Under the pieces are notes generated by a model. It was not told the origin of the DNA. It saw only the letters and a list, made by a program, of their open reading frames with translations, and did not search any database. From Candidatus Poseidoniales archaeon (GTDB taxonomy: Archaea; Thermoplasmatota; Poseidoniia; Poseidoniales; Thalassarchaeaceae), in assembly GCA_003602515.1 (NCBI GenBank), contig QQSB01000042.1, positions 1 through 52,643 of the forward strand: 52,643 bases of DNA, read 5' to 3'. Shown here one piece after another: positions 17,901 through 52,158 of this stretch; position 1 is the stretch's first letter, and each line of letters starts with the position of its first letter. A program made the translations under genes and the position numbers.

Positions 17901-20900
17901 TAAACTCCCTATTTACGAACATGAAGTCGTAAACCAGGGAGCCGTCCAGGGAGATCGCCCCATAGTCAGAGGTAATGCTCAGGGGGATGTCAGTCTCCTC
18001 TTCGAATTCCTCGTCGGGAATTCCCGCCAGGTAATCCTCTATGGACGGTCCTAGTCCTGAAACGTTCTCGAAGAACATGTATCCGACTCCAATTGATGAC
18101 ATTGATACGGTCTGAGCGGATGTAGATGTCACAGATAGCGGTACCTCGATCCAATTCCTCCCTGTTGATGTGTCGTAATGGCTGGGACTGAGTAGACCTA
18201 TGCCAGAAATTTGAGCAAGACTTAGGGTGCTGGTGAATGGAGAATCACCGCTGCCGCCTGAAACTGCCGAACCGGCAACTGATACAGTTACTGGGGCATC
18301 GAATCCATCAGAGTCAGGGGCGATGCTGATGAAACCCGTGTTTACTGCCGCGGATTCGGGAATCAGCACTGTAAGGCTCTCGGGATTCGAACCATCTAGG
18401 GACAAGGAGGTGCTTCTTGAGAGCGAGCCCCCATAATCGATCCAGGACTGCCATCCTAGATTGCCATAAGCATAATCGTCACCGTCGAACATCGGGAAGT
18501 GCCATTCATCGATTCCATCATCAAGTACATCTAGTCGAGAATTGGAGGATGGATCGGAGAACGTTGAGGAGATTCTGAGGACATCTATCCACCCATTGGT
18601 GGGAAGATTTACTGAGGCGGAGAAGCCGACCTGTTGGTGTGAGAATTGTATTGTCCCGCCCTTATTCGCTGAACCGAGGGAGTTTCCTAATTTATCGAAG
18701 ACAGTTACAGAAACAGAACTGGAGATGTTTCCTTGTATTGTTACGCTCTTGATGGGGCGAGGCGAGAAAATGAAATCGGAAGTAACCGTTCCGGTTACTG
18801 CTGTGGCATTCAGCAGACCGTCCACTACTTCAACTCCGGCACTAAGGTCCCACCCATTTTGTCCCGAGTCAGCATTCAATACTCTCTTGCCGCCGATGAC
18901 GACCCTTGACAAGCTAGGGGTCTGCTCTGAATCATCGGAACCCATATGTATCTTCAGTCTGACTTGAGGGAACTGAGCTGAGTCAACTCCTGCCAGGCTA
19001 AAGGGGAATGAAATATTGGAGAATCCGGGAACTTGGGCCCCTGTGCTACCATCCAATAGGGATCCGCGGATCCAGCCACCTTCATTTGCTTGGCCCTCAA
19101 TATCGATGAATCCAAGGTTGAATTTGTTGGCATTTGCCAATGATAACGAAGGACTGATCCAACTTCCGGGTATCCCATAGTTGGAAATCTGCACCCCTGC
19201 ATTGTCTATGAACCAACCAGCTAGGCTGTAGTAACCATCGGAGCCAAATGCGAACTTGAACTTCACAGAGTCTCCCTTGTAGGCATCTAGATTAGCCCGT
19301 AGGTTTGTCATCTCGCTAGTTGAAGACCAGGTACCGCCCCAAGCCGTACCTGTGCAATGATCCATCGTGAAAATGCCCATGCCCTGAAGGTTGTGGCCTG
19401 CAAAGGAAGAAGCAGTCCCAGTGTACCAACCCGGGTCAAAGTACTGCCATGACCCTCCGTTTACTTTGATGAATACAGCACCCCCGTCCCATCCTGCCTC
19501 ACCGCATGACCAGTGGTCAAATGTAAGATAAGATGTACCGTTCATTGGGATTTCATAGAGTGGCGAAATTAGCCTCGCTTCGTCGATTCCATTCTCATAA
19601 TTGCCGGAGAACCCGATACCGTACGCATACGGGAAGGAAGCGGTTTTTGGAGGTCCAGAGTTAGGGGAGACTTTGTTCAGGGTGAATTTACACCTGTCAC
19701 TGCTGCATGTCCCAGAAGTAGACCTAGACCACCCGGGAGCCTCTGAAACTGTGGGGGAGTTTGCTGTTGAATCTTCGAATCCGAGCATTACTGAATCCTC
19801 ACCCTTGGTCAGTGACCTGTGGATCCAGTCATCTGGAGAAGGGTTTCCCTGGGAATCTGGCATACCATAGTGGGACATCGTGGAAGGAACTTCGAATTCT
19901 TCCGTGAATAGAGAATTGCCTTCATAGTCAACTACTCTGAAATGGGAAATTGTCAGACCCTCTCGCGTGTCTTGGTTGTTTCCGCCATAATTGAATGAAG
20001 AGCTTGTATCTACGATTATTCTGATATCGACGCTTGATTGATCCTGGAATCCAGATGGGATATCAAATGAGACAAGACGGAAGTCCCCACTCTGATCGCC
20101 ATATGTTTGTCCGTCATCAGCAGTGTATCCTGTCCCAGGGATTGGACCTGATCTTGCCGAGCAATCAGAAGATGTGCTGCTCGTACTCGAGGAAATATCA
20201 GCCCATGTATTTCCATTCAATGAAAGTTCTACACAAGCGTTGTCACTAGATCCGCCCTCTAGATCCCATTCCATATTGAACTCAATTTTGGATGTGGAGT
20301 TGGTCCCAGAAAGATCGATATTCCGCTCAAGAACACCGTAGGCATTTGAATTGTATGTGCAAGAAGTTGAAGTGGTAGTGAAGCAACCGTGGTGCCAGAC
20401 ATCCAATTCAACGCCCTCGTTAATAACTTGAATATTATCGATGAACCATCCTGGCCTCTCGTTTACAGAATCTGGATGGGTCCATATAACGAATCTGAAC
20501 TGTACATTGTCAGATTCGGTTATCCCGGGTAGAGAAGACAGAGTGAAATTGCTAGTGACCCAACCGCTGTGTGATGAGGATGCAAAAACTGGGACTGGCG
20601 ATGCGGCGCCGTTAGGGGTTGGGGCATCGGAAGAGAGAGTACTAGGGTATCCACTCTGTGGCTCAATGAAATTCCATTCTCCCCATGTTGAGTCTGACTT
20701 TAGGCGGTATTCCACCCAGGTTCCATCGCCGCCCCCGGAAGAGGTTGAATCCACGTGGAACCAGTGATCGAAGGTTAGGTAGTATGTACTAATGTAGGGG
20801 CCTGTAGGGACACTCTGAGCAGGAATTAGCAGATGCCCGAAAGTTCCTGCAGGGACTGGTTCTCCAGGCATTGTTCCTGCTGAAACAAGACCCTGCGTAG

Positions 20901-22185
20901 ATGAGGAGGGGACGATGCCGTGAGGCAGAGTCTGCTCCTCGCCGTATATGCTCCCATTCAAATCTAGGAATGTTGTTGCCCTCCAAAGCTTGCTTCCATG
21001 GCAAATAAAGGAAGTGTCTAAAATCTCAGATTCATCCAGATTCCTATTCTCGTTCAGATCTAGTCCCGATACAAGCTTAATTCCCGCATATGTGCAATTT
21101 TCTCCAGTGGGCTCGGAAAGGATATCTACCTCATACTCGTAATAGTCTCCAAGATTGGCTGAAATTGTCCCTCCGGAACCTCCGGAGTCACTGATGGTAA
21201 TGGAAGGTGTTGAAGTATAGTTGGCACCCCCATCAGTTACTTCCACGGAGTGTATGACTCCTGTAGAGTAGACGTTTGCCGACAATGATTCTCCAGATCC
21301 GTTTGCAACACCAATCACAATAGTGTCTGAGGACTGGTATCCAGACCCCGAGGAGTCGATTGTAATCGATGTAATTGCACCACTAGCATCTACCGAACCA
21401 ATAGATGCAGTCGCACCGGAGCCATCGCACTGGCACTGGATTACAACCTGATCTGAAGTATCGAATCCGGAACCGCCATCGTTGATTGTTATACTCTCTA
21501 TCCCGGAGCTAACTGCATAGGTCCCCGAGAAGCCCGACCCTCCTCCTCCAGTGGCTGAAAGATTTCCTGAGGCATATCCGCTCCCGGAATCGTCTATCGA
21601 CAATGATGTGATTACATCGCCGTTAGCGAAAGTCTCACAGTAGTATATGGTCTCAATGATTTCGTCGTTGTCTAGAGTCTGGTCAAAGTCGCTATCGAGG
21701 CCATGTTCTATGTAGTCCCCTGGTGAACCACCACAGCCTGATAAGTTAGTTGAAGAGGACTTGAAGAAAACCCTACGCCATCCTGGCGAGTACTCGTATT
21801 CTGAGTTGAGAGTTACTTCGATTTCACCTACATCGAATGTACTTACATTGGAGCGTGATCCATCATCCTTTAGCACCATCTCGCCCTCATCATTCAGCTC
21901 GACTCCAACCATATTTCCAGAGGAGAAGTCGTCTCCATCCCAGGTAATCCCCGAATCAGGAGAAGAAGATAGAGGAGAGTTGGTCACATGGACCCATCCG
22001 TCCAAAATTGTAGAGTTGGTAGGTACAGTGAATCCGTCGACTAAAGTGGGAGTTCCCTCGCTATTGATTACAGAAGGACCAGACCAATTTGATACTCCAG
22101 CATAAGATATCGGAGACAGGATCATCATTAGGGTCATTACAATTGCAAGTCTAGCGCGTTCACTGGGCATACTTATGCTGTGCAT
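14974..22185 (-). CDS. Giant (about 2400 aa) cell-surface protein with signal peptide, beta-rich repeats and C-terminal TM plus acidic tail
   Basis: Start set at MHSISMPSERARLAIVMTLMMILSPISYAG. C-terminal SGMIWIAGSLILLLSLMGAAFYIIRG followed by YDEEYDEEYE. The annotated extension to 22281 reads through the tRNA-Thr gene. Confidence 0.88.
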   Translation of the reverse strand: MHSISMPSERARLAIVMTLMMILSPISYAGVSNWSGPSVINSEGTPTLVDGFTVPTNSTILDGWVHVTNSPLSSSPDSGITWDGDDFSSGNMVGVELNDEGEMVLKDDGSRSNVSTFDVGEIEVTLNSEYEYSPGWRRVFFKSSSTNLSGCGGSPGDYIEHGLDSDFDQTLDNDEIIETIYYCETFANGDVITSLSIDDSGSGYASGNLSATGGGGSGFSGTYAVSSGIESITINDGGSGFDTSDQVVIQCQCDGSGATASIGSVDASGAITSITIDSSGSGYQSSDTIVIGVANGSGESLSANVYSTGVIHSVEVTDGGANYTSTPSITISDSGGSGGTISANLGDYYEYEVDILSEPTGENCTYAGIKLVSGLDLNENRNLDESEILDTSFICHGSKLWRATTFLDLNGSIYGEEQTLPHGIVPSSSTQGLVSAGTMPGEPVPAGTFGHLLIPAQSVPTGPYISTYYLTFDHWFHVDSTSSGGGDGTWVEYRLKSDSTWGEWNFIEPQSGYPSTLSSDAPTPNGAASPVPVFASSSHSGWVTSNFTLSSLPGITESDNVQFRFVIWTHPDSVNERPGWFIDNIQVINEGVELDVWHHGCFTTTSTSCTYNSNAYGVLERNIDLSGTNSTSKIEFNMEWDLEGGSSDNACVELSLNGNTWADISSSTSSTSSDCSARSGPIPGTGYTADDGQTYGDQSGDFRLVSFDIPSGFQDQSSVDIRIIVDTSSSFNYGGNNQDTREGLTISHFRVVDYEGNSLFTEEFEVPSTMSHYGMPDSQGNPSPDDWIHRSLTKGEDSVMLGFEDSTANSPTVSEAPGWSRSTSGTCSSDRCKFTLNKVSPNSGPPKTASFPYAYGIGFSGNYENGIDEARLISPLYEIPMNGTSYLTFDHWSCGEAGWDGGAVFIKVNGGSWQYFDPGWYTGTASSFAGHNLQGMGIFTMDHCTGTAWGGTWSSTSEMTNLRANLDAYKGDSVKFKFAFGSDGYYSLAGWFIDNAGVQISNYGIPGSWISPSLSLANANKFNLGFIDIEGQANEGGWIRGSLLDGSTGAQVPGFSNISFPFSLAGVDSAQFPQVRLKIHMGSDDSEQTPSLSRVVIGGKRVLNADSGQNGWDLSAGVEVVDGLLNATAVTGTVTSDFIFSPRPIKSVTIQGNISSSVSVTVFDKLGNSLGSANKGGTIQFSHQQVGFSASVNLPTNGWIDVLRISSTFSDPSSNSRLDVLDDGIDEWHFPMFDGDDYAYGNLGWQSWIDYGGSLSRSTSLSLDGSNPESLTVLIPESAAVNTGFISIAPDSDGFDAPVTVSVAGSAVSGGSGDSPFTSTLSLAQISGIGLLSPSHYDTSTGRNWIEVPLSVTSTSAQTVSMSSIGVGYMFFENVSGLGPSIEDYLAGIPDEEFEEETDIPLSITSDYGAISLDGSLVYDFMFVNREFSVPNTLYPDGNLVEIVTSHHHLSDNSQIADITLVGSSSDGKTISFMVENSPDGLWGTNSVEPQFSQSYGSSVAPLEASASYVTEAVHADGYVDIEVHWKFNIDWNWDDVDSITWVARANDENGETIWPSTSQSGRLGVNAVENDLQIDSFEIRDEFDRVISNTYDTLFYPFPVQDGSLLNISGTVRFQDQEAKRPSASDFSVALNLSGAIYALQTDDDGQFSGMASIPSGTSSLTLSPLMLRVGPSSSTNGAEDTTGEPPIVEIEVDTNPPVAGSIQVQTPIGLQYVDGMVVPPTTFSPYITISEGEARGETLTLKYWREGLDDLNGDGVADEGEYQYQSSDLSVGLTGEQQVQFLGIDVSAMDNEMIHLYVEGTDWAGLTYQDGGTGGGPGADNSWASVVVAEDVMVEFAGAGLGTGSGGGSTFSLDRITQDSIDYFLIPGKEHTFKVRLDEPNGFHTIDNITVFLCGYSSDFGAFSYEPFSSTLSSPSNSMLQAISASTESITSSVTELSVRFKMSWDLPFDDEDFDCKPRVLVEDGLDQIESEVLSTLSWRLDNRIVAIPSYAEDLTAPIIPALGTSLYLGQGDSFMVSGSVYHEGTGVPIAESTPDLTVLLSMLYGSGNYEATSEVDSSGNFTVEMSLPNFQPVDPVTVLTTSLIGTPGSSHSVSNSDASATVDTKPPTALFNVDAYPDSSLTVIETDSMNSVSVTITINEEIGMNYGPLQVSWAFQRNGQIIPGTEESGEVPWYSSTEGVHVYRGDLDFRPSLEFNIEDGDKVSFWITSTDKAGNEVAGLGGPDNPRTPTIRLVEFDGQYTRSQVTPTKNPLVGDTITIVTYWENPGKSDGTISVGLYEQRIDGTFSPSVSTMVNGPVELYLAPGSTSVRAEFEYIPVAAGQPLLVLVVDDDYGNANYMNVEISDIQVSSLSESSGPNSGMIWIAGSLILLLSLMGAAFYIIRGSTGGGFYDEEYDEEYE

Positions 22186-22236
22186 TATATCAGTTATGAA
22201 CCAATCTACGTAACTGCCGAAAAAGCCTGTTCTGAG

Positions 22237-22311
22237 TGGAGCCACTGGGGGGAATTGAACCCCCGACCTTCGCCTTACCAAGGCGACGCTATACCTCTAA
22301 GCCACAGTGGC
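22237..22311 (-). tRNA. tRNA-Thr (GGT)
   Basis: Reverse strand GCCACTG...TCGCC TTGGTAA GGCGA...CAGTGGC, discriminator T, encoded CCA; anticodon GGT. Confidence 0.95.
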
Positions 22312-33684: not shown

Positions 33685-36600
33685 ATGGTGCCAGCAACCT
33701 TAGTGCGAGCGTCGCGGCGGAAAGCGATTTGTATCGTCGTTATTGCGATATTACTGGCAACTCCACTGGCATCCACCAATCTGGATACATCTGAGCCGAG
33801 TGTATTTGGTGACGACATCGGTGCAATCATGGGCACGCTAGGGGAGGAGGGAGAAGTGTGGGCCGATGGTGGACAACCATGGCCTCAGTCTGGTAGGACC
33901 GCCTCAAGGATTGCAGAAATTCCGGATCATGGCCCCTCCGGAGGAGCAGGTACGGGAAACCCGGCTGACAGTGAGGTACTTTTGTCAATAGTTGAGCCAT
34001 CCGTTAATTGGGAATATGGCTCATACTCGATAGGGACTGATTCCCTAGCCACACCTATTGCTGATTTATCTGGCTCCATTGAGGTTGGCCCGGGAGCTAT
34101 GCAGAGGTGCGGCGAGAGTTCCCTGTTCACAGTATTAGTCCAAACAGAGGACGTTTCGGGGTCTGATCACAGTATTCTTCGACTAATCGAGGGAGAAGAC
34201 TCTGAGCTATCATGGCAGGTTGATTTGGGAGAAACCGAGAAAATAAAGGCAGCACCCGTGATTGTGGATATCGATGAAGATGGCAAGCCAGAGATTCTAG
34301 TCGCATATGACGCAGGGGGTTCATTGAATGTTGATGCGTGGTCTCCTAGGCTCTCATGCACTGTCACTGGATGGTCTTACTCGGGGCATTCAGAAGAGTT
34401 GCTTTGGTCCTGGAATGACGATTCTCTGATGATTAGCAGTGACGAGGGGCCATACACAAGTGGCATTCTTGGGGGTCACAAACCTACTACTCAGCCCCTA
34501 CTTGCCGATATTGATTTAGATGGGGATGCCGAATTGGTAATCGCTGCGATTGATGAGGTTTCCGAGGACCCAGTTGTCCTAGCTTTGCCGCTTCAAGTAA
34601 ATGGGACACCCAATTCACTCTGGGAGGTCACATTGAGCAAAGGTAGCCACCCCTCTGATCCTGCTTTCGCGCAGGTCGATGATGACACTGGTTACGTGAT
34701 TCTGACAACTATTGAGGCGAACAATGGAGCCATGTGGGTTTGGAAGATAGATTCGGAAACTGGTAGTTCGGCATGGCAAGGTGGACTTTCGCTAAACAAC
34801 CTAGATGGGGACACCAATTCCCCCCACATCAGATTGCCTGGGCCTATTGTCGCAAATCTAGATTCGGATGAAGACCCAGAAATAATCATTACAATTCCAA
34901 CTGATGCTGATGGTTCAACAGCCGTAGACGGGGCTGAATTTAGAGGCCTGGAGATTTCCGATGGTTCCCAATTATGGGAATTCGAAGCCTCTAATGGGTT
35001 CGCTGATGCCCCTCCAACCGCGATTGATACCGATGGTGATGGGTCCCACGATAGGGTGTGCTGGAATACGTGGTGGCAGACAACAACGGACAGACATGGT
35101 GCTGCTGGGTGCCATGACGTAGGGGGAGCCACTCCGAATCAAGAATGGGCCCAAGACCTGGAGCAGAGCAGTGGAAATCCAAATGACGAGATTGCTGTTG
35201 CTGCACCGACGTGGATGGACATCAATTCCGAGGACGAGCCCGAGCTACTGGTATCCTATGGGAGGTCTCTTTGGGCCTTCGATGGTTCCACGGGATCATC
35301 TGCTGGGATTAACTCAGAATGGTCAGACGAGGTCGAGGTCGAACACAGGACTTGGTCATCTCCTTCCCTGGCAGATGTTGATGGGGATGGAACTCTCGAC
35401 ATAGTTCTTGGAAGCATGGTTGTTTCGACTGCAATGCCGGATGTGAGGCCATTAACCGATGGCAGGGGGATTGAGTTCAATCCCAGTGCCCCGGACCCAG
35501 GAGAGGATGTCACTGTCACAGTATACTTGGAGAATGCCGGTACGGCGGAAACTGACGAAGTTGTAGATGTGGCTCTGTTCGCCAACGGGGAGAAAATTGG
35601 GGGGACTGGCATTTCGATGATGACTCCCGTTGAGCCCAGCGGTTCTGGTTCATTCTCATCTTTTAGCTTAGAATGGAGCGGGGGTTTGGGAGAACACACG
35701 TTTGAATTAGTTCTGGACCCTTATCAAAACCTGAGCCAAACGAGATACGACAATGATATCCAAGTCCGTACACTTTCTATTATCCCTACATACAATGCGT
35801 CATTCGAAATCCCGACCGAACCTCTGCGAATCGATCCCGGTAGCGAGGGTTATGCAGAATTTGGGATTAGATCTACGGGGAGGCTGGCAGGATCTTGGAC
35901 GCTAGAAGTTGACGATTCTGCTCTACCAGACGGGTGGACATGGGAGGACGAGACTCCCGGTGGAATTAGCTCGGTCGAGATTGGCGTGGATGAGTTCTGG
36001 AGTCCTATCCTCAAAATAGCGTCTCCGTCAGGGGCTCTGGGTTCCGACTCTGGTTTCCTTGCCCTGACACTCTCGCACATTGACGGGTCTGCTGAAATAT
36101 CTGCCAATCTGCCAATAGAAGCCAACAGGACTAGGGGGATGTCAATAAGAGGCCCTGATGGTACTGCTCAGAGTACTGGCTTAGGACTGGTATCAGAAGA
36201 TGCCAGAGCTTGGTTAATGATTGAGAACGTCGGCAATGCTGCTGAGGAACAGATTGCGATATCATGGGATGGGACTGATTGGGGCTCTGATCTCCGAATT
36301 TTTGACTCCAGAGGAGGCGAGATTAGTGCACTTTCTCTTGGCCCGGGTGAGATGAAGGAGGTGACTGCGAGGCTTGCCGTACCTAGCGGCACCAGTGCTG
36401 GAGAGAGCGTCAGCACCCCTCTAAGCATGTGTGTTGGTTCTGGAGAAGAGCAAGAGTGTAGCCAGATTCAACTAGAGTTTGTTGCTACCAAATCGACCCT
36501 ACAACCAAATCACATCAGATCCGTACCAACTACGAACCTGACATGGGAATTATTTGCGGACCTGCCCGAGGGAGATGACAATGTAAGTTGGTCACTGGCT

Positions 36601-39330
36601 GATTCTGGCATGACTATCCAAGGGTGGGAATGGAGCGGAAGTGGCGATCTAGAAGTTACAGGTGATGTGATCTCCATATCGGGAGAACCGGGCTCTAGAG
36701 TCAGCGGGACGCTTTCTCTCGACCTACCTGTGGATGCCCGCCCCTCTTTCCACCTGTTCGGGGACGGTGTGGGCTCTGAGATGCCATTGATACTATCTAT
36801 CGAAGTTCTGCAGATTCATCGGGCTGGTTTGGAAATCAACTCCCCGACGACTCAGCCATTTGTAGTAGACGTAGAAGATTCGAACCTGGTTGTACTACGT
36901 CTCGAGAATCCGGGAAATGGAGATGATTCCTACTCACTCTCCCATGAGTTGATCCTCGACGAGAACATCACTTCCGACCCGGGAATTGAGATTTCTTTCT
37001 CCAGCAACCCGGTTGAGCTTGGAGCAGGGAGCCTCAGAACCGTACCAGTAAGCGTGACATTACCGGAAGACGCCCCCGCCAGGATCCCCATTTCAGTCTC
37101 TTTCTCCATGACTTCTCAGGGTAACGATACAGTTGCGGAGACAGAGGTGGTGGTTTTCGAAGTCAGGCAAGATCATAGATGGGATATCGACCTGCTGCAC
37201 GATGGTTCTCCGATCAATGGTTCGACTTATTTGCTAGTCCCGGGAGAAAGCAAAACGTTGTCAGTGAATGCCACAAACGTGGGTAACTTGGTCGATGACC
37301 TATCTCTGTTTGCTGAGGTGCATTTGTTGCTGAGCGGTTCGGACCCATCACAGGGCTGGGAGGCAAATGGGAGCTCTTCCACTGGAGTTGCGGTAAATCA
37401 GACCGAGGTTCTGTCGATCTCCGCCTCGGTGCCTGAGGAATCTTGGAATGGGTCAATAATGAGAGTAGACGTAATCGCTGATGCCAGGAATGAGGTGATC
37501 ATGGAATTCCACTTCTTCGTAGAAGTTTCCAGGGTACCGGGATGGGATATCTCGTCATCGATGTCTGATTTAGAAATCGATGCAAATGGCTCTTCTGTCG
37601 AAATCGAGATAATACAGGAAGGGAACAACCCGAGTGTCCCTTTCGTTTCGGCTTATATTTCTGGACAGAACGGGTGGGCTATCGATGAGTTGCCAGATCT
37701 GCCGGAAGTCGAACCAGGCTCTTCGACAACGCTGGCATTCAACGTAACCCCACCCGAGTCGGCCACTCCAAGCAAGACCGTTGAATTGCACATTAGAGTC
37801 AGGGACGGAGACTCCCTGGGGCTAATGGAAATAACTGTCCCACTGAGGGTTTCTCCGGAGTACAACTTCTCCATGGGACTCTCGGGATCATGGGTAGTTT
37901 CCCCGCTAGGCGGCCTTCCCAACGCGATGGTTACGAACACGGGCAATACCCCCACAACAATAGATTTCCAGGTACTGGATCTACCTCCGAATTGGGAGGC
38001 GAGCGGGTCAATGAGGATTACCCTCGGAGTTGGGGAGACCAGAGGCGTGCCAATCGAGATCGTCCCCGATGGGAACTCAAGCGATGTAGGGGGAAGTATC
38101 AGAATTTCGGCCGTAGATGCTATTGGAAACCAAATAGAGACATCCATAGAATTACAGTTTTACGAACACTCGTGGGAGATTTCTCCGTACTTGTTCGCCT
38201 ACGAGGGTGATGATGCTCTAATCAGAGTTCATGGGGCAAATGAAAACTCGATAGTGATAGATGAGGTGTCCGGGGACTCCTTGGAGTGGGATGGAATGGG
38301 CTGGTTGCTCCCAGCCGAATCATCCGTAAATGGAAGCCTGTCTATAGACGGAGAAACGTCATTGAGCTACTATCTGACAGTTGCTGAGTCCAAGCCAAGA
38401 GACGCAATTTGCTCATTATCAGGGGGATTCGAAGATGTTCGGGCGTCATGTTCGATATTCAATGGAAGCGCCGTCTTTGAGTACCAGGCTCTGCTAATTG
38501 GTGATGACGGAGTTGTTCTGGATTCCAGTTTCGGCAGCCTATCTGAAAACGAAACCGCCCTATCCATCAATCTCAGCGGATCTGCATGGGAACCAGATCC
38601 TGGCGAGAGAAGCATCGGCATCCGATTGCTAGACGGAAAGGGGACTTTAGTCACGTCTATGGAACGGACGTTCGATGTAAGAAGAAGCGACTGGAATATT
38701 GGTATTGGTGTCGTGGAATTGGTCGGAGTGGGTTCGGACCAGAAGATCAACATCCCAACAAAGAGGCTCAACGAGAATATCTTGACGGGTGCAGACTGCA
38801 GAATTACAATGAGTGCCGAGGGATACTACTCGGAGCATATTGTGGATATGACCCAAGCATTCGTTCCGGCTCCGAAATTCGATAGGCCGGATGTGGAAGA
38901 TGGGCAAGAATTGGTGGTATCCATAGGATGCGGATTCCCCTGGGACGTGGATTCTGACCCCAATGACGATGAGGCGACTCTCGTCCTTAGTGGCGGCTCT
39001 TCACTGGAGGACAGGTTCGATGAGTTCGGCACTGGTTTGATCGTAGCCATACTTGTGGTTGGTATGTACCTCGGGCTGACCTGGATCGCTAGCAATCGCA
39101 GAGAGGGTCAGCGTCTTATGGCCCTAGCACAAGCAGCCATAGATGAGAAGATGGCTGAGAACAAGACGAAAGTACAGGATGATGCCACCCCTGGCCCAGA
39201 AAAGAATAAGGAGACTTTGGAAGAAGATGATGGAGATCTGGATATGGATGAAATCGAGTTCGTACAAAAGGAGAAATCTGAGGATGGCGACGAGTATGAC
39301 CAGAGGCTCAGAAGGCTTCTTGACAGATAG
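33685..39330 (+). CDS. Giant (about 1880 aa) surface protein with N-terminal FG-GAP/VCBS-like propeller, CARDB-like Ig repeats and C-terminal TM
   Basis: Signal-like AICIVVIAILLATPLAS; DIDEDGKPEILVAYD, DIDLDGDAELVIAAID, DVDGDGTLDIVLGS; GEDVTVTVYLENAGTAETDEVVDVALFANGE; LIVAILVVGMYLGLTWIASNRR; acidic cytoplasmic tail. Confidence 0.9.
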   Translation: MVPATLVRASRRKAICIVVIAILLATPLASTNLDTSEPSVFGDDIGAIMGTLGEEGEVWADGGQPWPQSGRTASRIAEIPDHGPSGGAGTGNPADSEVLLSIVEPSVNWEYGSYSIGTDSLATPIADLSGSIEVGPGAMQRCGESSLFTVLVQTEDVSGSDHSILRLIEGEDSELSWQVDLGETEKIKAAPVIVDIDEDGKPEILVAYDAGGSLNVDAWSPRLSCTVTGWSYSGHSEELLWSWNDDSLMISSDEGPYTSGILGGHKPTTQPLLADIDLDGDAELVIAAIDEVSEDPVVLALPLQVNGTPNSLWEVTLSKGSHPSDPAFAQVDDDTGYVILTTIEANNGAMWVWKIDSETGSSAWQGGLSLNNLDGDTNSPHIRLPGPIVANLDSDEDPEIIITIPTDADGSTAVDGAEFRGLEISDGSQLWEFEASNGFADAPPTAIDTDGDGSHDRVCWNTWWQTTTDRHGAAGCHDVGGATPNQEWAQDLEQSSGNPNDEIAVAAPTWMDINSEDEPELLVSYGRSLWAFDGSTGSSAGINSEWSDEVEVEHRTWSSPSLADVDGDGTLDIVLGSMVVSTAMPDVRPLTDGRGIEFNPSAPDPGEDVTVTVYLENAGTAETDEVVDVALFANGEKIGGTGISMMTPVEPSGSGSFSSFSLEWSGGLGEHTFELVLDPYQNLSQTRYDNDIQVRTLSIIPTYNASFEIPTEPLRIDPGSEGYAEFGIRSTGRLAGSWTLEVDDSALPDGWTWEDETPGGISSVEIGVDEFWSPILKIASPSGALGSDSGFLALTLSHIDGSAEISANLPIEANRTRGMSIRGPDGTAQSTGLGLVSEDARAWLMIENVGNAAEEQIAISWDGTDWGSDLRIFDSRGGEISALSLGPGEMKEVTARLAVPSGTSAGESVSTPLSMCVGSGEEQECSQIQLEFVATKSTLQPNHIRSVPTTNLTWELFADLPEGDDNVSWSLADSGMTIQGWEWSGSGDLEVTGDVISISGEPGSRVSGTLSLDLPVDARPSFHLFGDGVGSEMPLILSIEVLQIHRAGLEINSPTTQPFVVDVEDSNLVVLRLENPGNGDDSYSLSHELILDENITSDPGIEISFSSNPVELGAGSLRTVPVSVTLPEDAPARIPISVSFSMTSQGNDTVAETEVVVFEVRQDHRWDIDLLHDGSPINGSTYLLVPGESKTLSVNATNVGNLVDDLSLFAEVHLLLSGSDPSQGWEANGSSSTGVAVNQTEVLSISASVPEESWNGSIMRVDVIADARNEVIMEFHFFVEVSRVPGWDISSSMSDLEIDANGSSVEIEIIQEGNNPSVPFVSAYISGQNGWAIDELPDLPEVEPGSSTTLAFNVTPPESATPSKTVELHIRVRDGDSLGLMEITVPLRVSPEYNFSMGLSGSWVVSPLGGLPNAMVTNTGNTPTTIDFQVLDLPPNWEASGSMRITLGVGETRGVPIEIVPDGNSSDVGGSIRISAVDAIGNQIETSIELQFYEHSWEISPYLFAYEGDDALIRVHGANENSIVIDEVSGDSLEWDGMGWLLPAESSVNGSLSIDGETSLSYYLTVAESKPRDAICSLSGGFEDVRASCSIFNGSAVFEYQALLIGDDGVVLDSSFGSLSENETALSINLSGSAWEPDPGERSIGIRLLDGKGTLVTSMERTFDVRRSDWNIGIGVVELVGVGSDQKINIPTKRLNENILTGADCRITMSAEGYYSEHIVDMTQAFVPAPKFDRPDVEDGQELVVSIGCGFPWDVDSDPNDDEATLVLSGGSSLEDRFDEFGTGLIVAILVVGMYLGLTWIASNRREGQRLMALAQAAIDEKMAENKTKVQDDATPGPEKNKETLEEDDGDLDMDEIEFVQKEKSEDGDEYDQRLRRLLDR

Positions 39331-42630: not shown

Positions 42631-45015
42631 ATGTCATCGCAATCTTCCACTCATTCCGTCATTAGAGGTTCGAGGCATGCGGAGTTGATTGTAGTATTCG
42701 CCATTTTCGCCCTGTTTGTCTCGGCTGGAGGATCATCCGCACAGGAAGTCAGGAGTGGGTGGGAAGCAGTCGACAGCGGAATAGAAGGGGATCTGAACAC
42801 AGCAGAGGCGCTAGATGGGGAGATGTGGGCGTTCGGATCCGAAGGAGTCATGATTAGAAGCATTGACGAAGGAAAAACTTGGTCTGAATCGGGCATATCG
42901 ATCAATCATAATCTAACTTCCTCTGATGCGAGCTTCGGAGCAATAGCAGTAGCGGGAAATAGTGGGACCGTGTTGTTGATGAATGAGGGTCAATGGTTTG
43001 ATGTAAGCCATCCAGTAATCAATAGCGATTTCAAAGATATTGCACTTACTGGAAACAATAGTTTTGTTGTAATTTCAGAAAGTTCGATTATGACTTGCAT
43101 AGTTTCTGAAGGAGGGGGGACCGATTGGGAGTATGTTGATTCGAGTTTATCAGGAGGAGACTTGCATAGTATTTCTTTCCTAGACTCAGAAAATGGACTA
43201 ATTTCCGGTGAAAATGGAACTATTCTTGCATCTTCTGACGGAGGCAGTACTTGGGATTACAGAGATGCTCCCAGCGAGGTAACATCTTCCACAATTGTAG
43301 ACATAGAGTACCACAGTACCATCAGAGCATACGCAATCACTGATGAAGGCCACATTCTGAAGTCATCCAGGGAAGGGAATGTACCAGTAGGTTTTGTTTG
43401 GAGCGTAGTAGATATCGAAAGAGAGTACCCCCCTGGTGGGGGGGATGAGTTCGAAAATGGAGGTTTAGCCCTCGACTTCGATGTCTCGAGAATAGAGGTT
43501 CTAGGACAATTCAAGATCATGTTTTCAGGCTCGGGCGGTTATCTCTCAATTAGCCTCGATGGAGGAAATATAGTCTCTCAGCAGATGATTCCGGTTTCTA
43601 ATGAAACGGTTTTCAACAGTTTTGCAATGCAAGACGGTTTCAGAGGAGTTGTCGTAGGGGACGGAGGGGTGATACTTAGAACTGAGAATGCTGGATCCGA
43701 AGAGTTCGTTGGTTTCGAAGTAATTGACTTCAATGACTTCGGACAATTCGTGGATTATTCTAAGGAGCGTCTAATGGATGGTCTGGTCGCGACTGCTAAG
43801 ATTGTCGTCTTTGGCATAATGATGGGTTTCTCTCTGGGAATTATCCTCTCGATGCTGAAGACATCTCCGACCACCCTGAAGAATTTGGCACAGACTAATC
43901 GGTTCCAGATTATGGTGATGTTCGTTGTGGCTCCAATTTGGGTACTGTTTCAGATTCCCATCTCAGCGATTAAGGGCTCTGGTTTGGCTAAGAACTGGAA
44001 CCTGAATAACCCTCTGAATGGAATAATGGGTTACTGCAAGGAGAGGTCCCTCCAAATCGCAGCCAGTGAGCCGCTTAACGTCATAGCAATTCGGACTATT
44101 GGCCTGGTATTGCTTGCTTTCGGGTTGCACCGTATTTTCCTAAATCTTGATGACATTAGTGCTCTAAATCTGGATGGTTGGGAGCATATCTACTCGCCTA
44201 TAGGCGCCCCTAGCGCAGTGTTCTGGATTCTATTAGGAATCGGGATTGCAGTTCTCGGTTCCATCTTCTTATCCTGCAATGGAGACTTCTCGATAAGGGA
44301 AGTAAAGTTGGGGTGGACAAATATGTCACTGAACCCATGGGGAATCAGGCCACTGAATACAATCGCTACCGTGTATACTGATATTTTCAGGAATACCCCG
44401 CTTCTTGTCCAGTTCATGTTCATCCACTTTGGATTCGAGCTTGGAAGGAGGTTGCAAGACCCTGGGCTGATGCTATTCGACTTTGATTATCTAAATGGGA
44501 ACTCTAACTTCATCACCGATATTTTTGTTGTTTGGGAGACCAATCCAGAGTCTCTAGCCTATGGCAGACCTGTTGGGGGCATCCTAGAGGACAGAGCATA
44601 CATTAGTGCGATATTCGCACTCGGACTGAACTCAGGTGCCTACCAATGCGAGACAATCAGAGGCGCTATTGCAGCAATACCATCTGGCCAGATGGAAGCG
44701 GGAAGGAGCATTGGGTTGAACTACATGCAATCGATGAGGCTGGTAGTAATGCCTCAAGCAGTCAGGATCTGCATTCCGCCTTTAGGCAACGAGATGGTCA
44801 ACCTAGTCCTGAACTCTTCCTTGGCAATGATAATCGGTTATGCTGAGATAACGAGGCAGGGCAAACTGATCGTTGCGACTACATTCCAGGTTTTCTGGAC
44901 TTGGGGCATGGTTCTCATTTCCTACTTCCTAATTACATGGACTTTGGCCCTATTCCTCAGGTATCTCGAAGAAAGGACCAGGATACCGGGACTAGGGATC
45001 TCAGGGGGTGCTTGA
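42631..45015 (+). CDS. Predicted fusion: N-terminal secreted Ycf48/BNR-like beta-propeller plus C-terminal polar amino-acid ABC permease (HisM-type)
   Basis: Signal peptide/TM, BNR-like motifs (SIDEGKTWSE, SSDGGSTWDY); then LVATAKIVVFGIMMGFSLGIILSML and IYTDIFRNTPLLVQFMFIHFG-type HisM core, AYQCETIRGAIAAIPSGQMEAGRSIGLNYMQSMRLVVMPQAVRICIPPLGNEMVNLVLNSSLA EAA-loop. Confidence 0.88.
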   Translation: MSSQSSTHSVIRGSRHAELIVVFAIFALFVSAGGSSAQEVRSGWEAVDSGIEGDLNTAEALDGEMWAFGSEGVMIRSIDEGKTWSESGISINHNLTSSDASFGAIAVAGNSGTVLLMNEGQWFDVSHPVINSDFKDIALTGNNSFVVISESSIMTCIVSEGGGTDWEYVDSSLSGGDLHSISFLDSENGLISGENGTILASSDGGSTWDYRDAPSEVTSSTIVDIEYHSTIRAYAITDEGHILKSSREGNVPVGFVWSVVDIEREYPPGGGDEFENGGLALDFDVSRIEVLGQFKIMFSGSGGYLSISLDGGNIVSQQMIPVSNETVFNSFAMQDGFRGVVVGDGGVILRTENAGSEEFVGFEVIDFNDFGQFVDYSKERLMDGLVATAKIVVFGIMMGFSLGIILSMLKTSPTTLKNLAQTNRFQIMVMFVVAPIWVLFQIPISAIKGSGLAKNWNLNNPLNGIMGYCKERSLQIAASEPLNVIAIRTIGLVLLAFGLHRIFLNLDDISALNLDGWEHIYSPIGAPSAVFWILLGIGIAVLGSIFLSCNGDFSIREVKLGWTNMSLNPWGIRPLNTIATVYTDIFRNTPLLVQFMFIHFGFELGRRLQDPGLMLFDFDYLNGNSNFITDIFVVWETNPESLAYGRPVGGILEDRAYISAIFALGLNSGAYQCETIRGAIAAIPSGQMEAGRSIGLNYMQSMRLVVMPQAVRICIPPLGNEMVNLVLNSSLAMIIGYAEITRQGKLIVATTFQVFWTWGMVLISYFLITWTLALFLRYLEERTRIPGLGISGGA

Positions 45016-47084: not shown

Positions 47085-48020
47085 CTAGAATATCCTGCTA
47101 TCTAGGGGGGTGACGTTTCCATCTTCATCGAATAGTCGTTCGTCATTAGTTTGGTTCCTTCCGATCGCCGCACCGGCAAGAGCGGCCATCATCGTTGTCC
47201 CAATTAGCTCGAACCCAGGCAGGTAGACTCCTCTGATGTATATGGTCATGACCTGGATCTGGTAATTCGGAACCCCTTCTGACCTAACAGAATACTCTGA
47301 GGTGGCCTTGAATTGAAGATTGAAGTACTTGTCAGTCCAACCTTGATTCTTCGGAGTACGCATCTGAACTCTGAACTTCTCTGGAGGAGCAAGTGAGTCG
47401 ATCTCCTGCGATATCAGTGGCAGGCTAAGTTGGAAACCCTCGTCGTTCAACTCGTCGTAGTTCTGAATCTCGACATTGAATTTGTCTCTTGCATTGCCAT
47501 CATTGTAAACGTCGAAGACAAGGGTGTAGTCGACTTTTGGCCTAAGTTGGATGAATGCTAACTCTGCACCGACCCTGAGTCTGCTAAACTGCTTGAATAC
47601 TGTCATCACCTTCGCCTCAGTTGGAGAGGTCGCTGCTGTCACTGGTGCTCCGTTCCATTGAGTGACGGTTGCTGTTATCGTGACAACCTGTTGCCCTTCT
47701 GGCTGTCTCAGATCGGCCCTGGCAGCAACTTGGAAGGAAGTGTCTCCCGGGGGGACGGTTGCAGAACCGGGGCCGGCTACAGAAATTATCCCCTGTTGGT
47801 AAGTCAGATCAACCTTCTCGGAGAAGGTTGTGGGATTTGTCAAGGTGCAGTAGATGATTGTAGACCTAAGTGCGCCGGGGTAAACCTCGATTGGAGCGGG
47901 TTGATCACAGGTAAGTGAGACGTCTGGGGATGTCTGTGCTTGTACTGCGGCTACACCCGAGCAGAGACTCATGAAATAGACAACCAGTATCATTAATGGA
48001 ACTCTAAACGATGCACTCAT
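47085..48020 (-). CDS. Secreted protein with Ig/CARDB-like domains and C-terminal PGF-like anchor
   Basis: Signal peptide MSASFRVPLMILVVYFMSLCSGVAAVQAQ; C-terminal YLPGFELIGTTMMAALAGAAIGRN; start set downstream of the track ORF start. Confidence 0.78.
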   Translation of the reverse strand: MSASFRVPLMILVVYFMSLCSGVAAVQAQTSPDVSLTCDQPAPIEVYPGALRSTIIYCTLTNPTTFSEKVDLTYQQGIISVAGPGSATVPPGDTSFQVAARADLRQPEGQQVVTITATVTQWNGAPVTAATSPTEAKVMTVFKQFSRLRVGAELAFIQLRPKVDYTLVFDVYNDGNARDKFNVEIQNYDELNDEGFQLSLPLISQEIDSLAPPEKFRVQMRTPKNQGWTDKYFNLQFKATSEYSVRSEGVPNYQIQVMTIYIRGVYLPGFELIGTTMMAALAGAAIGRNQTNDERLFDEDGNVTPLDSRIF

Positions 48021-48101
48021 CACTAAATCCTCTGATTGAACCGTATTTGAGGCTTCGCCCAAGTCGGACCCCAAATGTATCAATAATGCAGGTTGTGATT
48101 T

Positions 48102-48178
48102 TGGTGGACCCGACCGGATTTGAACCGATGACCACTCGGTTATGAGCCGAGCGCTCTAACCAACTGAGCTACGGGTCC
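48102..48178 (-). tRNA. tRNA with CAT anticodon (elongator Met or Ile2)
   Basis: Reverse strand GGACCCG TA GCTCAGTTGGTTAGAGC G CTCGG CTCATAA CCGAG TGGTC ATCGGTTCAAATCCGGT CGGGTCC A CCA; anticodon CAT. Identity elements resemble archaeal Ile2(CAU), but this was not verified. Confidence 0.95.
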
Positions 48179-48312
48179 CCGTAGCCATCGCCCATGAGTA
48201 TCGAAATGAACCTTATCTTGCCAGGGGTTGTCTCTAGTGTATCAGGTATCAATGGCTAAACCTAGTGTAATGGTTTATGCCTAGTCCCCTTTTCGGAAGT
48301 CTGAGTGAAACT

Positions 48313-51009
48313 ATGGAGAACAAGGGAACTATTGCAATTATAATTGGGGCACTGCTTTTGATGGTAAACGTCGGAATAGGCGTTACAGGGGCTATAGACA
48401 GCATCATTGAAGGAACCGTAGCAGATACGGTGGCAGGGAGTTATGACGGCTTGGATGATGATGGAAACCAAGATTATACGGCTGACTTCGATGACGACTG
48501 GATTAACGCATCGGGAGAGAAGGCTTACTTCGCGAACTCGATTACCAATCTTGAGGAAATACTGGCGGATGCGACCGTTGAGCCGACGTATGAGAAGGTA
48601 GGACCTTTCATCTACTACGAGAATACTACTCGAGAGGTCATCGAATTCGACTATGACGAGGGCTCTATCACATACTCTGGATACGAGACATTCGAATGGT
48701 GCGAGGATTGCACATGGACGGACGACGAAGGGGTCGAACACACATCTGTATCCGGCGACACTGTCGTAAATCAGATCAACATCCTATGGAATACTCAGAG
48801 AATAGCTGGAATGGGTAGTGGTGTCGAGTACGGGGAGATTTTCGCCAAGGCGATGTTCGCTGCCCAGATGATAGAATTCGACCTCTCCAATAGGGCACCC
48901 AGCATCTGGGCGTCCGAGGAAATCGAGTCCATGACTGCTGCTGCCGGAGGGGGCAAGTTCGGGAACATGAATGCTGAATTGAATGTTTCAGCCGCTTCAT
49001 ATTCCGCCACTGGTCAGACCAACATCTGGACAATTTCTGATGATCATGACCTAACTCCCATAAAAAACGCATTTTACAATGCAAATGACGGTTATGGGAA
49101 CTGCATCGCATTAACTTGCGACATCGGTCCGGTTCTGATTGCAGGAATGGGGGCACCAAGTGAAACCGTGACTCCTGCCAGAGCCGCCCTCCTTGGATAC
49201 AGTGACTGGACCTCGACGCCAGAGGACACAGTCGCACTGGATTGGGCTGTCTACTCATTGGCGGCGTCCAAGTTCGTCGAGCATGGGGGAGGGGCAGAAA
49301 TAAACAATCAGACTGCACAGTTGAAAGAGAGATTCACAGAGGTCAGTGGCGTCACCATCAGCGACCCAGCCACACTAGAAAACCTGCTATTCAACGAAAG
49401 CGTTGGACTGCTTACCTCATTCGAAATCAGTGGCATCCCTCTTCCGGGGATGGTAGTTGGATTACTTCTACCCCTCCAGAGTGCAGACTACTTCGGGGCT
49501 ATGACGACCTACAACGTTGGCCTAATCACGATTGGCGGTCTTGCCGATTACGTAGAGCCTTGGGTCGGCTTGGGGCTAACTGGAGTCCCAACTGAGTTCG
49601 AGATGATTCTTGCTGGCGGGCAGGGAGTAATGGCCTCCAATGACTGGTGGTTGACCGCATTCGGCGACTATGACCCACTGGGGGGCATATACATCCCAAT
49701 AGGTCTGAATCGCGATACTTTCGCAGGTATGGCAAGCCTCACTCAGGAGGAGTCCGATTTCATCCTGAATGATCCGGATATCGGGCTCAAGTCCTCGTTC
49801 CCTGGACCATTCATGTACGGTGAGCTTTCCGGCTTGAGTCTACCAGACTCGGAAGGTGTGCAGCACACATGGGACGATGCCTATGTAGCATCCCTATACG
49901 GTATTTCAGAGGAAGCTGCCCATGCTCTAAGGGATTGGGTGGCAAACTTCTACTTCGATACGGTAATGCCAGTGCTACTGAACTTCGTTACTGGAAACAC
50001 CCCATACTACTCTATGCCCATCAGCAACTGGCTTTATGGATGGGACGATGCCGTTAGCGCCTACTTCGGATTCTTCTCTTGGAACAGCCTCGAGACGAAT
50101 GCAACTTACTACGGATCGGACGGGATTAGCACCGGAGACTGGTCCGTGTACAAGATGAGCACGAAAGGGGACACAATGGGGCAGAGAATGGCTCAAGGCT
50201 ACGTCAACTCTGACGGAGATGGGATTTGTGACTACGACTATGATGCCAATGGGAACTTCATTGGCTACGACCTTCCATGCGAAGATGGACAAGTTTACGG
50301 AATGACCGAGCACCTGACTTGGAGGGCTCCACACAGGGAAGATGCGGCAAACGGGCTGCTGACAGCCCATGCTGGGAATGCTGATACCTCGTTGATGGGA
50401 ACTGCTGGGTCGTTGGCAAGTCCGAACGATCCATTCAGCTTTAATGTGGCAGGATACGCAATTGCGACCTCAGAAGTGGGGAACGAGGCGACATACAAAG
50501 GAATAGACATGGTAGAGCATACAGTGACAGTCGAGCCTGCCAATACACAGATCCAAGGGAAGTTGATTGGTTCTTCGACCTACGTAGATGTCATTCCCGG
50601 TGCGCTACCTGTGTACCTAGGTGCGGACATAGACCTGAAGGTCGAACCAGTCACCTCTGCGATAATGTATGGCAAGGTCAAGGTCACTTTCCACTTGGAC
50701 AAACGCGGGCCGGGTTACTTGAACCCGGACCTTTCGGAAGAAAGCACAGAATCGATGCCAGTATTCGAAATCCACGTTTTCAGCGAAATCGATGACGAGG
50801 GAGCGGAGGACTTCAGAGGAGCGGTCTCGGAAAACCTGGGGCCAATGGGTTGGACCAACTTCGGAGGGACGGCAGGAACGGCATTGACTGTCGTGCACAC
50901 GGTTGTCGCTCTAATGTACGTGACCTCGATTGTGTCGCTAGCTTATGGCCTATCAGACCCAAGCACCAGAGCAATGCTGGGAATCGGTAAAGACGAAGAT
51001 GAAGAGTGA
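48313..51009 (+). CDS. Two-TM extracellular protein with CD36/LIMP-2/SR-BI-like sequence blocks
   Basis: N-terminal TM IAIIIGALLLMVNVGIGVTG; AYFANSITNLEEIL...YEKVGPFIYYENTTREVIEFDYDEGSITYSGYETFEW; ISNWLYGWDDAV...GFFSWNSLETNATYYGSDGISTGDWSVYKMSTKGDTMG; LKVEPVTSAIMYGKVKVTFHLD; C-terminal TM ALTVVHTVVALMYVTSIVSLAYG. CDS confidence is high; the family assignment is by eye. Confidence 0.85.
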   Translation: MENKGTIAIIIGALLLMVNVGIGVTGAIDSIIEGTVADTVAGSYDGLDDDGNQDYTADFDDDWINASGEKAYFANSITNLEEILADATVEPTYEKVGPFIYYENTTREVIEFDYDEGSITYSGYETFEWCEDCTWTDDEGVEHTSVSGDTVVNQINILWNTQRIAGMGSGVEYGEIFAKAMFAAQMIEFDLSNRAPSIWASEEIESMTAAAGGGKFGNMNAELNVSAASYSATGQTNIWTISDDHDLTPIKNAFYNANDGYGNCIALTCDIGPVLIAGMGAPSETVTPARAALLGYSDWTSTPEDTVALDWAVYSLAASKFVEHGGGAEINNQTAQLKERFTEVSGVTISDPATLENLLFNESVGLLTSFEISGIPLPGMVVGLLLPLQSADYFGAMTTYNVGLITIGGLADYVEPWVGLGLTGVPTEFEMILAGGQGVMASNDWWLTAFGDYDPLGGIYIPIGLNRDTFAGMASLTQEESDFILNDPDIGLKSSFPGPFMYGELSGLSLPDSEGVQHTWDDAYVASLYGISEEAAHALRDWVANFYFDTVMPVLLNFVTGNTPYYSMPISNWLYGWDDAVSAYFGFFSWNSLETNATYYGSDGISTGDWSVYKMSTKGDTMGQRMAQGYVNSDGDGICDYDYDANGNFIGYDLPCEDGQVYGMTEHLTWRAPHREDAANGLLTAHAGNADTSLMGTAGSLASPNDPFSFNVAGYAIATSEVGNEATYKGIDMVEHTVTVEPANTQIQGKLIGSSTYVDVIPGALPVYLGADIDLKVEPVTSAIMYGKVKVTFHLDKRGPGYLNPDLSEESTESMPVFEIHVFSEIDDEGAEDFRGAVSENLGPMGWTNFGGTAGTALTVVHTVVALMYVTSIVSLAYGLSDPSTRAMLGIGKDEDEE

Positions 51010-51081
51010 GTAGATTTGTGCTTCTAAGAAGCATCTTATTCTGCAACCTGTCAACTAGTGGTAACCTTTGCGGGGTGTAGC

Positions 51082-52158
51082 ATGAGGCTCAAGCATATAG
51101 ACAGGATAAGGGCGATCGCGGTCCTCTTCATGGTAGAGGTCCACACAGCAGCAATCGTACCCCCCAGCGGGATAACTGTGGGTCACCCTGCGGCATTCAT
51201 TGCAGCTGCATTTGGCGGAATGGCAGCACCTATGTTTGTCACAGTTTCCGGTTGGGGGATGTACAGTAGTGCCTCGAGGAGGTTATCAGAGGGGCATTCG
51301 GCCAGTCAGTGGATGAATTGGATCATCCCCCGGTTTACACTTCTCTGCATGTGTCAGATACTAGTTAACATCCTTCTGAACGTCGAAAGGGGAGGGAGGT
51401 TTGAGTGGCACACACCAGGAGTTCTTACTCTGCTTGCAATTTCATCCGCAATTTGCCCTGCACTAGTCAGGGCAAGCATGAGGGGCAGATCGATTTTGAT
51501 GCTTCTATTCTGCGTATCGCCATTGTTGATGGGAGCTAGCTCTGGTCCCGAACTAGGTTGGTTCGAAAGGGTCGATGCCAAGAGCTTCGAGGAGTGGGCG
51601 GCCAGACTACTATGGAACGGGACCTATCCGATCTTTCCTTGGTTCTTCTATATCCTGCTTGGGACAGTTCTTCACGATCTACGTGAGGACTACAGAGCCA
51701 GGGAGAGGGGGATATTATTGGGGATATTGGCAACTTCAGTTACGTTGGCCTTGTCAGTAATCGAGGGAATTGACTGGGCACTGACTTCGGGGGACGCCGT
51801 CCTGACTTTCTTCCCCGCTAGCATGCCCTTCCTGGTCGTCTCGGGTACTATGGTGGCATTAGCCCTTAGAATTCTTGAGGGAGAGGAGGAATCCGGAGGA
51901 GAGCCATGGATGGGAGAGAGGTTGTCACTGTTAGAGCCGGCCGGAAGACTATCCCTGACGATATACGTGTCCCACTTCGCGGTTCTAGGCGCAGTGGCAC
52001 TACTGATGGAAGGCGAGCCACGGTTGTCCCTGATTCCTGCTTTCCTGGTGACGATTCTGCATACAGCCGTCTGGATACCCCTTGCGATAGTTCATGAGAG
52101 CAAAGCCCCGGGACTTTCCCTTGAGGGGTTATTGAGGAGAACTCAGTCTTCTAGGTAG
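51082..52158 (+). CDS. Multi-TM acyltransferase-like membrane protein (DUF1624/HGSNAT- or acyltransferase-3-like)
   Basis: RLKHIDRIRAIAVLFMVEVHT N-terminus, FGGMAAPMFVTVSGWGMYSSA, IFPWFFYILLGTVLHDL, LEPAGRLSLTIYVSHFAVLGAVAL. Confidence 0.75.
   Translation: MRLKHIDRIRAIAVLFMVEVHTAAIVPPSGITVGHPAAFIAAAFGGMAAPMFVTVSGWGMYSSASRRLSEGHSASQWMNWIIPRFTLLCMCQILVNILLNVERGGRFEWHTPGVLTLLAISSAICPALVRASMRGRSILMLLFCVSPLLMGASSGPELGWFERVDAKSFEEWAARLLWNGTYPIFPWFFYILLGTVLHDLREDYRARERGILLGILATSVTLALSVIEGIDWALTSGDAVLTFFPASMPFLVVSGTMVALALRILEGEEESGGEPWMGERLSLLEPAGRLSLTIYVSHFAVLGAVALLMEGEPRLSLIPAFLVTILHTAVWIPLAIVHESKAPGLSLEGLLRRTQSSR

Follow-up and report, generated by a model that had tools for sequence, protein, structure and literature searches.

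The window is the whole stretch of 52,643 nucleotides analysed here, and the genome to which it belongs is 1.36 Mb in size and 76% complete. As listed in Table 1, the window contains a gene for a large membrane protein that we assign to the CD36 family, together with its flanking genes. An in-frame ATG upstream of this gene, at position 48277, is an alternative start and gives a protein of 910 aa.

Table 1 Features of the CD36-family gene and its surroundings in the window
Feature	Position	Strand	Basis
CD36-family membrane protein gene	48313..51009	+	open frame, 898 aa
N-terminal transmembrane helix, aa 4-24	48322..48384	+	hydropathy mean 2.45 (aa ~5-25); helix in AlphaFold2 model
First CD36 core block, aa 65-133	48505..48711	+	PF01130 match; PDB profile alignments
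Lineage-specific insert, aa ~159-530	48787..49902	+	HMMER gap between collinear blocks; helix-rich model; motif spacing
Long helix (corresponding to LIMP-2 alpha5) and WLYGWDD motif, aa 533-585	49909..50067	+	invariant residues; aligned to LIMP-2 LLWGYKD
C-terminal half of CD36 beta core, aa 601-840	50113..50832	+	at least 10 strands in model; orthologue model spans LIMP-2 ectodomain
SDGDGxCD loop, aa 632-660	50206..50292	+	sequence; Cys columns; TSP3_bac matches in 2/40 orthologues
C-terminal transmembrane helix, aa 855-881	50875..50955	+	hydropathy mean 1.93; helix in model
Membrane acyltransferase (Acyltransferase_3 / HGSNAT-like)	51058..52158	+	PF01757 1.8e-18; PF07786 1.4e-13
Choice-of-anchor T surface protein	47085..48083	-	NF041740 3.7e-71; divergent orientation
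tRNA-Met	48102-48178	-	upstream flank of CD36-family gene

A sequence-only reading of this DNA had proposed a transmembrane helix near each end of the protein. Hydropathy gave one clear helix per end, as it did in almost all orthologues with complete ends. The cytoplasmic tail before the first helix is very short, the tail after the second is acidic, and the domain of about 810 aa between them would face the outside of the cell. The first core block comprises a strand, the sequence YFANSITN, the GPFIYY motif and a long beta hairpin, with core strands at aa 65-129. Seven residues are invariant in 40 orthologues (G97, P98, Y101, W573, L574, G576 and D579), and the most conserved stretch of the archaeal family is aa 533-585, with a pairwise identity of 0.459. 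Three Cys pairs are partly conserved (130/133, 264/269 and 639/656), apparently at places other than those of bilaterian disulfides 1-3. Because the disulfide bridges of the CD36 family are not universal outside bilaterians (PMC10715195), the bilaterian pattern does not define the family. The SDGDGxCD loop, which contains two Cys residues, resembles in sequence a thrombospondin type-3 or calcium-binding repeat. It should be mentioned that the ectodomain is strongly acidic (120 D/E vs 28 K/R in the window protein), and that N-glycosylation sequons in 43 CD36 proteins are modestly more frequent than in shuffled sequence (365 vs 272).

The relationship to CD36 was examined by profile searches in both directions. 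In the 910-aa form, the Pfam CD36 model (PF01130) covers aa 89-145 with an E-value of 4.5e-7 and 29.1 bits, above its curated cut-off of 26.5 bits, and it matches all 40 orthologues at E ≤ 0.01 (best 2.2e-20). The only other family in a Pfam scan of these orthologues was a TSP3 repeat, which two of the proteins contain. In the opposite direction, a profile built from the 40 orthologues gave eight matches among all PDB sequences, every one of them LIMP-2 or CD36 (E 0.001-0.009). With a more diverse profile of 43 orthologues, the E-values against the whole PDB were 2.7e-7 for LIMP-2 and 2e-4 for CD36; eight matches were found at E ≤ 0.001, all LIMP-2 or CD36, and the sole match outside the family, LAMP1, was at chance level (E 0.13). 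Thus, the profile match to Pfam CD36 that the earlier reading had put forward as a check is significant both ways. A single-sequence phmmer search of the PDB with the window protein gave no match, so the relationship is remote and a profile is needed to detect it. Overall identity to LIMP-2 and CD36 in the structural alignment is only about 9-12%.

The sequence-only reading had named four segments in the same order as in CD36-family proteins. The first two both lie inside the PF01130 match, and they belong to a collinear block shared with LIMP-2 and CD36 that consists of a strand, a helix and a hairpin with NxTNxEE and GPxxY. About 400 profile positions separate it from a second block, aligned to LIMP-2, which is a helix with LLWGYxD. 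The third segment (NWLYGWDD...SDGISTGD...) was recovered as this second HMMER block, with profile positions 538-639 corresponding to LIMP-2 129-219; taken alone it is weak (8.8 bits). For the fourth segment, near the C terminus, the sequence gives only a hint (0.8 bits to CD36 and a negative score to LIMP-2), and the segment is supported by the fold match of an orthologue over the whole ectodomain.

Structures were predicted by AlphaFold2 with the orthologue alignment. The model of the window protein had a pLDDT of 82.4 and a pTM of 0.74, and that of an orthologue, L066, had values of 83.4 and 0.73. When both models were compared with the PDB by Foldseek, as the earlier reading had suggested, the top 13 matches were all LIMP-2 or CD36 chains with a probability of 1.00. 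The L066 model was the best among the orthologues: its E-value against LIMP-2 was 6.5e-8, and nine LIMP-2 chains aligned over more than 800 columns with target TM-scores of 0.60-0.66, an alignment that covers the whole ectodomain together with the large insert. The model of the window protein itself aligned over about 340 columns to only part of LIMP-2, with a target TM-score of about 0.38. Accordingly, the asymmetric antiparallel beta-barrel core is supported by the fold match of L066, and the window model has the same family at the top with a lower TM-score. Helices 533-560, 570-575 and 580-585 of the window model occupy the place of alpha5/alpha7, and the apex is enlarged by about 370 aa. 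Both a profile match and a CD36 fold, on which the sequence-only reading had staked its claim, were looked for and found. From the PF01130 score, the archaeal profile that finds LIMP-2 and CD36, and the Foldseek ranking, we conclude that the protein is almost certainly a genuine, if divergent, member of the CD36 (class B scavenger receptor) family, as had been claimed.

The insertion that had been noticed in the first half of the ectodomain was borne out by motif spacing. The distance between the GP and WL motifs is 346-551 aa in the archaeal proteins, with a median of 496, whereas it is roughly 90 aa in LIMP-2 in the alignment of the 43-orthologue profile. The insert is present in all archaeal members read. 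The smallest, with 346 residues between the motifs, is found in L073 of genus g20; this gene (L073:5038-7248) encodes the shortest member (736 aa), on a very long branch. In the model of the window protein the insert is about 370 aa long and mostly alpha-helical, and the stretch aa ~159-530 has no Pfam or NCBIfam match. Alignment and model together place it at the alpha4/alpha5 position, where it is predicted to enlarge the membrane-distal apex, so that a helical cap would replace or extend the small alpha4/alpha5/alpha7 bundle. Mean pairwise identity is 0.35 in the insert vs 0.40-0.46 in the core. In eukaryotic class B scavenger receptors (SR-Bs) longer than 500 aa, helices were added independently at the alpha4/alpha5 apex (PMC10715195). 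Repeated enlargement of the apex offers a natural test of how CD36-type receptors change ligands.

Next, we consider the distribution of the gene. In a profile search, the protein was found in 116 of the 128 sampled genomes of Poseidoniales (Marine Group II) and in none of the 262 other sampled Thermoplasmatota, seven of which belong to a sister group in the same class (numbers counted from the listed rows). Thus, order-specificity holds within Thermoplasmatota, the phylum sampled. The PF01130 model gave a match in 107 of the 148 genomes of the same family, over the cut-off in 79, and exceeded the cut-off in none of 14 control genomes. Genera g4 and g16 are without the gene in every genome among those listed. 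The dN/dS values to the two closest relatives are about 0.07-0.12, and the gene is under strong purifying selection. A quick protein tree with long branches mostly tracks the two families of the order; the exceptions are a second copy in g9 and the copies in g2 and g10, which sit with the other family and suggest, as far as such a tree can indicate, that the gene was duplicated or exchanged long ago inside the order. In genus g9 (L017 and L018), the second, divergent paralogue and the first lie head to head. In the one-contig genome G162, the gene (L071:5744-8436) is split into two overlapping frames, by a frameshift or a sequencing error.

Single-cell genomes are among the named carriers. Near-universal presence in the order, synteny in Ca. 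Thalassarchaeaceae and these single-cell genomes exclude recent transfer, for which the earlier reading had suggested a check; contamination is ruled out on the same grounds. Two apparent bacterial carriers, Pedosphaera (L144) and Gemmatimonadetes (L151), proved to be misbinned Poseidoniales contigs: the order of their genes is that of the archaeal neighbours, to which they show mostly 92-99% and 61-73% identity. In the wider Verrucomicrobiota, the misbinned L144 contig was the only hit among 241, and Gemmatimonadota gave 0 of 200, where the positive control gave no match either. A search of viral contigs, plasmids and viral structures for a CD36-type protein found nothing.

The gene neighbourhood was read at 61 loci. 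The acyltransferase gene starts 48 bp downstream of the CD36 gene, and it is a same-strand neighbour at 24 of these loci; the choice-of-anchor T protein is a neighbour at 30. These two and an M60 glycopeptidase are the conserved neighbours in Ca. Thalassarchaeaceae, and in some genera of this family the intervening genes encode a TctA-type transporter, a secreted PLD/lamin-tail nuclease and a nucleoside phosphorylase. For example, at L037:7550-10573 and syntenic loci of sister genera, a secreted PLD-like nuclease with two lamin-tail domains lies directly downstream of the CD36 gene and adjoins the nucleoside phosphorylase. In Poseidoniaceae, the neighbours are completely different. Therefore, the CD36 gene probably works as a stand-alone unit; a functional partner kept across the order was sought in the 61 loci and was not found. 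Elsewhere in the window, an amino-acid type ABC permease (PF00528) stands behind a YCF48/VPS10-like beta-propeller (PF14870) in an unusual fusion (42631-45015, + strand), and two giant surface-type proteins, one of 2435 aa (14974-22281, - strand) and one of 1881 aa (33685-39330, + strand), contain DUF7151 and CARDB, FG-GAP and NPCBM domains.

As for function, a role in lipid uptake or transfer, or in the binding of particles, is plausible and is the best supported by the fold. We propose that the two transmembrane helices hold the ectodomain, with its CD36-type beta core, on the outside of the cell, where the helical cap would catch hydrophobic ligands or particles that carry lipid (algal fatty acids, lipoprotein or membrane debris). 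The core would hand lipids on to the cell membrane, after which an acyl-CoA synthetase would activate them and beta-oxidation would burn them. We give this route, from cap through core and membrane to beta-oxidation, an even chance of being correct in its steps. A family member that captures lipid by its cap and transfers it via its core is the overall explanation that we moderately favour. Solved relatives have cholesterol and phosphatidylcholine in a tunnel (PMC5712522). The window's genome encodes an AMP-binding enzyme of the acyl-CoA ligase type, and acyl-CoA dehydrogenase is present in all 148 genomes of the family. Excerpts of the literature report fatty acid degradation in all Poseidoniales genera (PMC6461757; PMC6336850) and high transcription of beta-oxidation in Poseidoniales (PMC9723583); a lipid uptake receptor does not appear for Poseidoniales in these excerpts (PMC6461757; PMC6336850; PMC9723583). 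In Marine Group II, the first step of lipid use, by which fatty acids enter the cells that degrade them, is unexplained, and the protein is a candidate for it. However, beta-oxidation is universal in the 148 family genomes, including genera without the CD36 gene. Its co-occurrence with the gene is therefore uninformative, and lipid use is independent of the gene because the genera that are without it keep beta-oxidation. In the loci read, no lipid-specific gene is linked to the CD36 gene across the order.

A serious rival is that the protein belongs to the same family and acts as an adhesion or tethering receptor, whose cap holds particles or secreted hydrolases while no lipid passes through the core. 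LIMP-2 tethers glucocerebrosidase in this way. Its apex helices bind protein partners (PMC5712522), and the enlarged part of the archaeal protein is precisely the cap. Moreover, the neighbours in Ca. Thalassarchaeaceae (the surface-anchored protein and the M60 glycopeptidase, with the PLD/lamin-tail nuclease in sister genera) resemble the equipment of a digestive cell surface. However, these neighbours are not kept in Poseidoniaceae, and the core is better conserved than the cap. We consider tethering rather unlikely.

Import of a carotenoid or retinal for proteorhodopsin is much less probable than either. Insect CD36 relatives import carotenoids, and many Poseidoniales have proteorhodopsin. 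Nevertheless, co-occurrence with rhodopsin does not support this idea: genus g4 is without CD36 yet has rhodopsin in 6 genomes, and g2, g10 and g11 have CD36 with no rhodopsin among the matches listed. Furthermore, 141 of the 148 genomes have phytoene/squalene synthase-type genes, and the isoprenoid precursor is therefore probably made in the cell. Equally improbable is a non-homologous origin, either as a surface protein with two helices and a beta-barrel that arose by convergence or as eukaryotic DNA that was misbinned. The low overall identity to LIMP-2 and CD36 would fit it, and so would the mycobacterial lipid-binding protein LmcA, whose fold is a weak second-rank match. However, the sequence matches are significant both ways and have the GPxxY and WLxGWxD blocks in the right sequence, the gene is spread over the order in an archaeal context that includes single-cell genomes, and the two bacterial contigs that carry it are themselves misbinned Poseidoniales DNA.

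Work on CD36-family proteins has dealt with them as receptors of eukaryotes, for fatty acids, lipoproteins and pheromones and in phagocytosis. Among the archaea of the surface ocean, Poseidoniales are one of the most abundant groups. A literature search that combined CD36 and family names with archaeal terms found, among the hits listed, no description of a prokaryotic CD36-family protein, and NCBIfam has no model that names an archaeal CD36-type protein. Since PF01130 recognises the protein, a CD36 label may already have been attached to it in databases by automatic annotation. A eukaryote-wide survey of 2023 placed the origin of the family in the last eukaryotic common ancestor, with archaea unmentioned (PMC10715195). 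What is new here is the domain of life, the status as a core gene and the giant cap; the kind of protein is already known. With the assignment made above, the CD36 family, of which the literature describes eukaryotic members only, exists in prokaryotes too, and the conserved archaeal branch offers either an outgroup for the family or a case of ancient inter-domain transfer. More tentatively, the gene may be an order-wide core trait of planktonic archaea, in a lineage from which the eukaryotic family arose or which acquired the gene anciently; the acquisition would have given archaea a lipid-import receptor free of endocytosis, with an independently evolved giant apex.

Finally, we compared the archaeal protein with known systems. 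Mycobacterial LmcA (PDB 7N3V, 7SHW) is the next-best fold match, with a probability of 0.97-1.00 over part of the beta core. However, its E-values are 0.01-0.05, its target TM-score is about 0.3 and it has no sequence match; on this evidence it is a separate family. CD36 (SCARB3; PDB 5LGD) shares PF01130, and the first transmembrane helix and first block align with it over 100 residues; there is also a weak likeness between the C-terminal block of the archaeal protein (PVFEIH...DEDAE) and that of CD36 (PILWLN...DEKAN). In contrast, CD36 is without the apex expansion, and the archaeal proteins show no evident bilaterian disulfide pattern. LIMP-2 (SCARB2; PDB 4F7B, 4Q4F, 5UPH) has the same two transmembrane helices, large ectodomain and beta-core fold, with the collinear blocks VGPYTY and LLWGYKD. 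It differs in its lysosomal membrane location in eukaryotes, in an ectodomain of about 400 aa against about 810 aa in the archaeal protein, to which its identity is the low value given above, and in its small three-helix apex. The eukaryotic SR-Bs longer than 500 aa (PMC10715195) have, as the archaeal protein has, a lineage-specific helical expansion of the alpha4/alpha5 apex with no known domain homology. These expansions are reported from eukaryotes only, whereas the archaeal insert of about 370 aa is common to the whole order.
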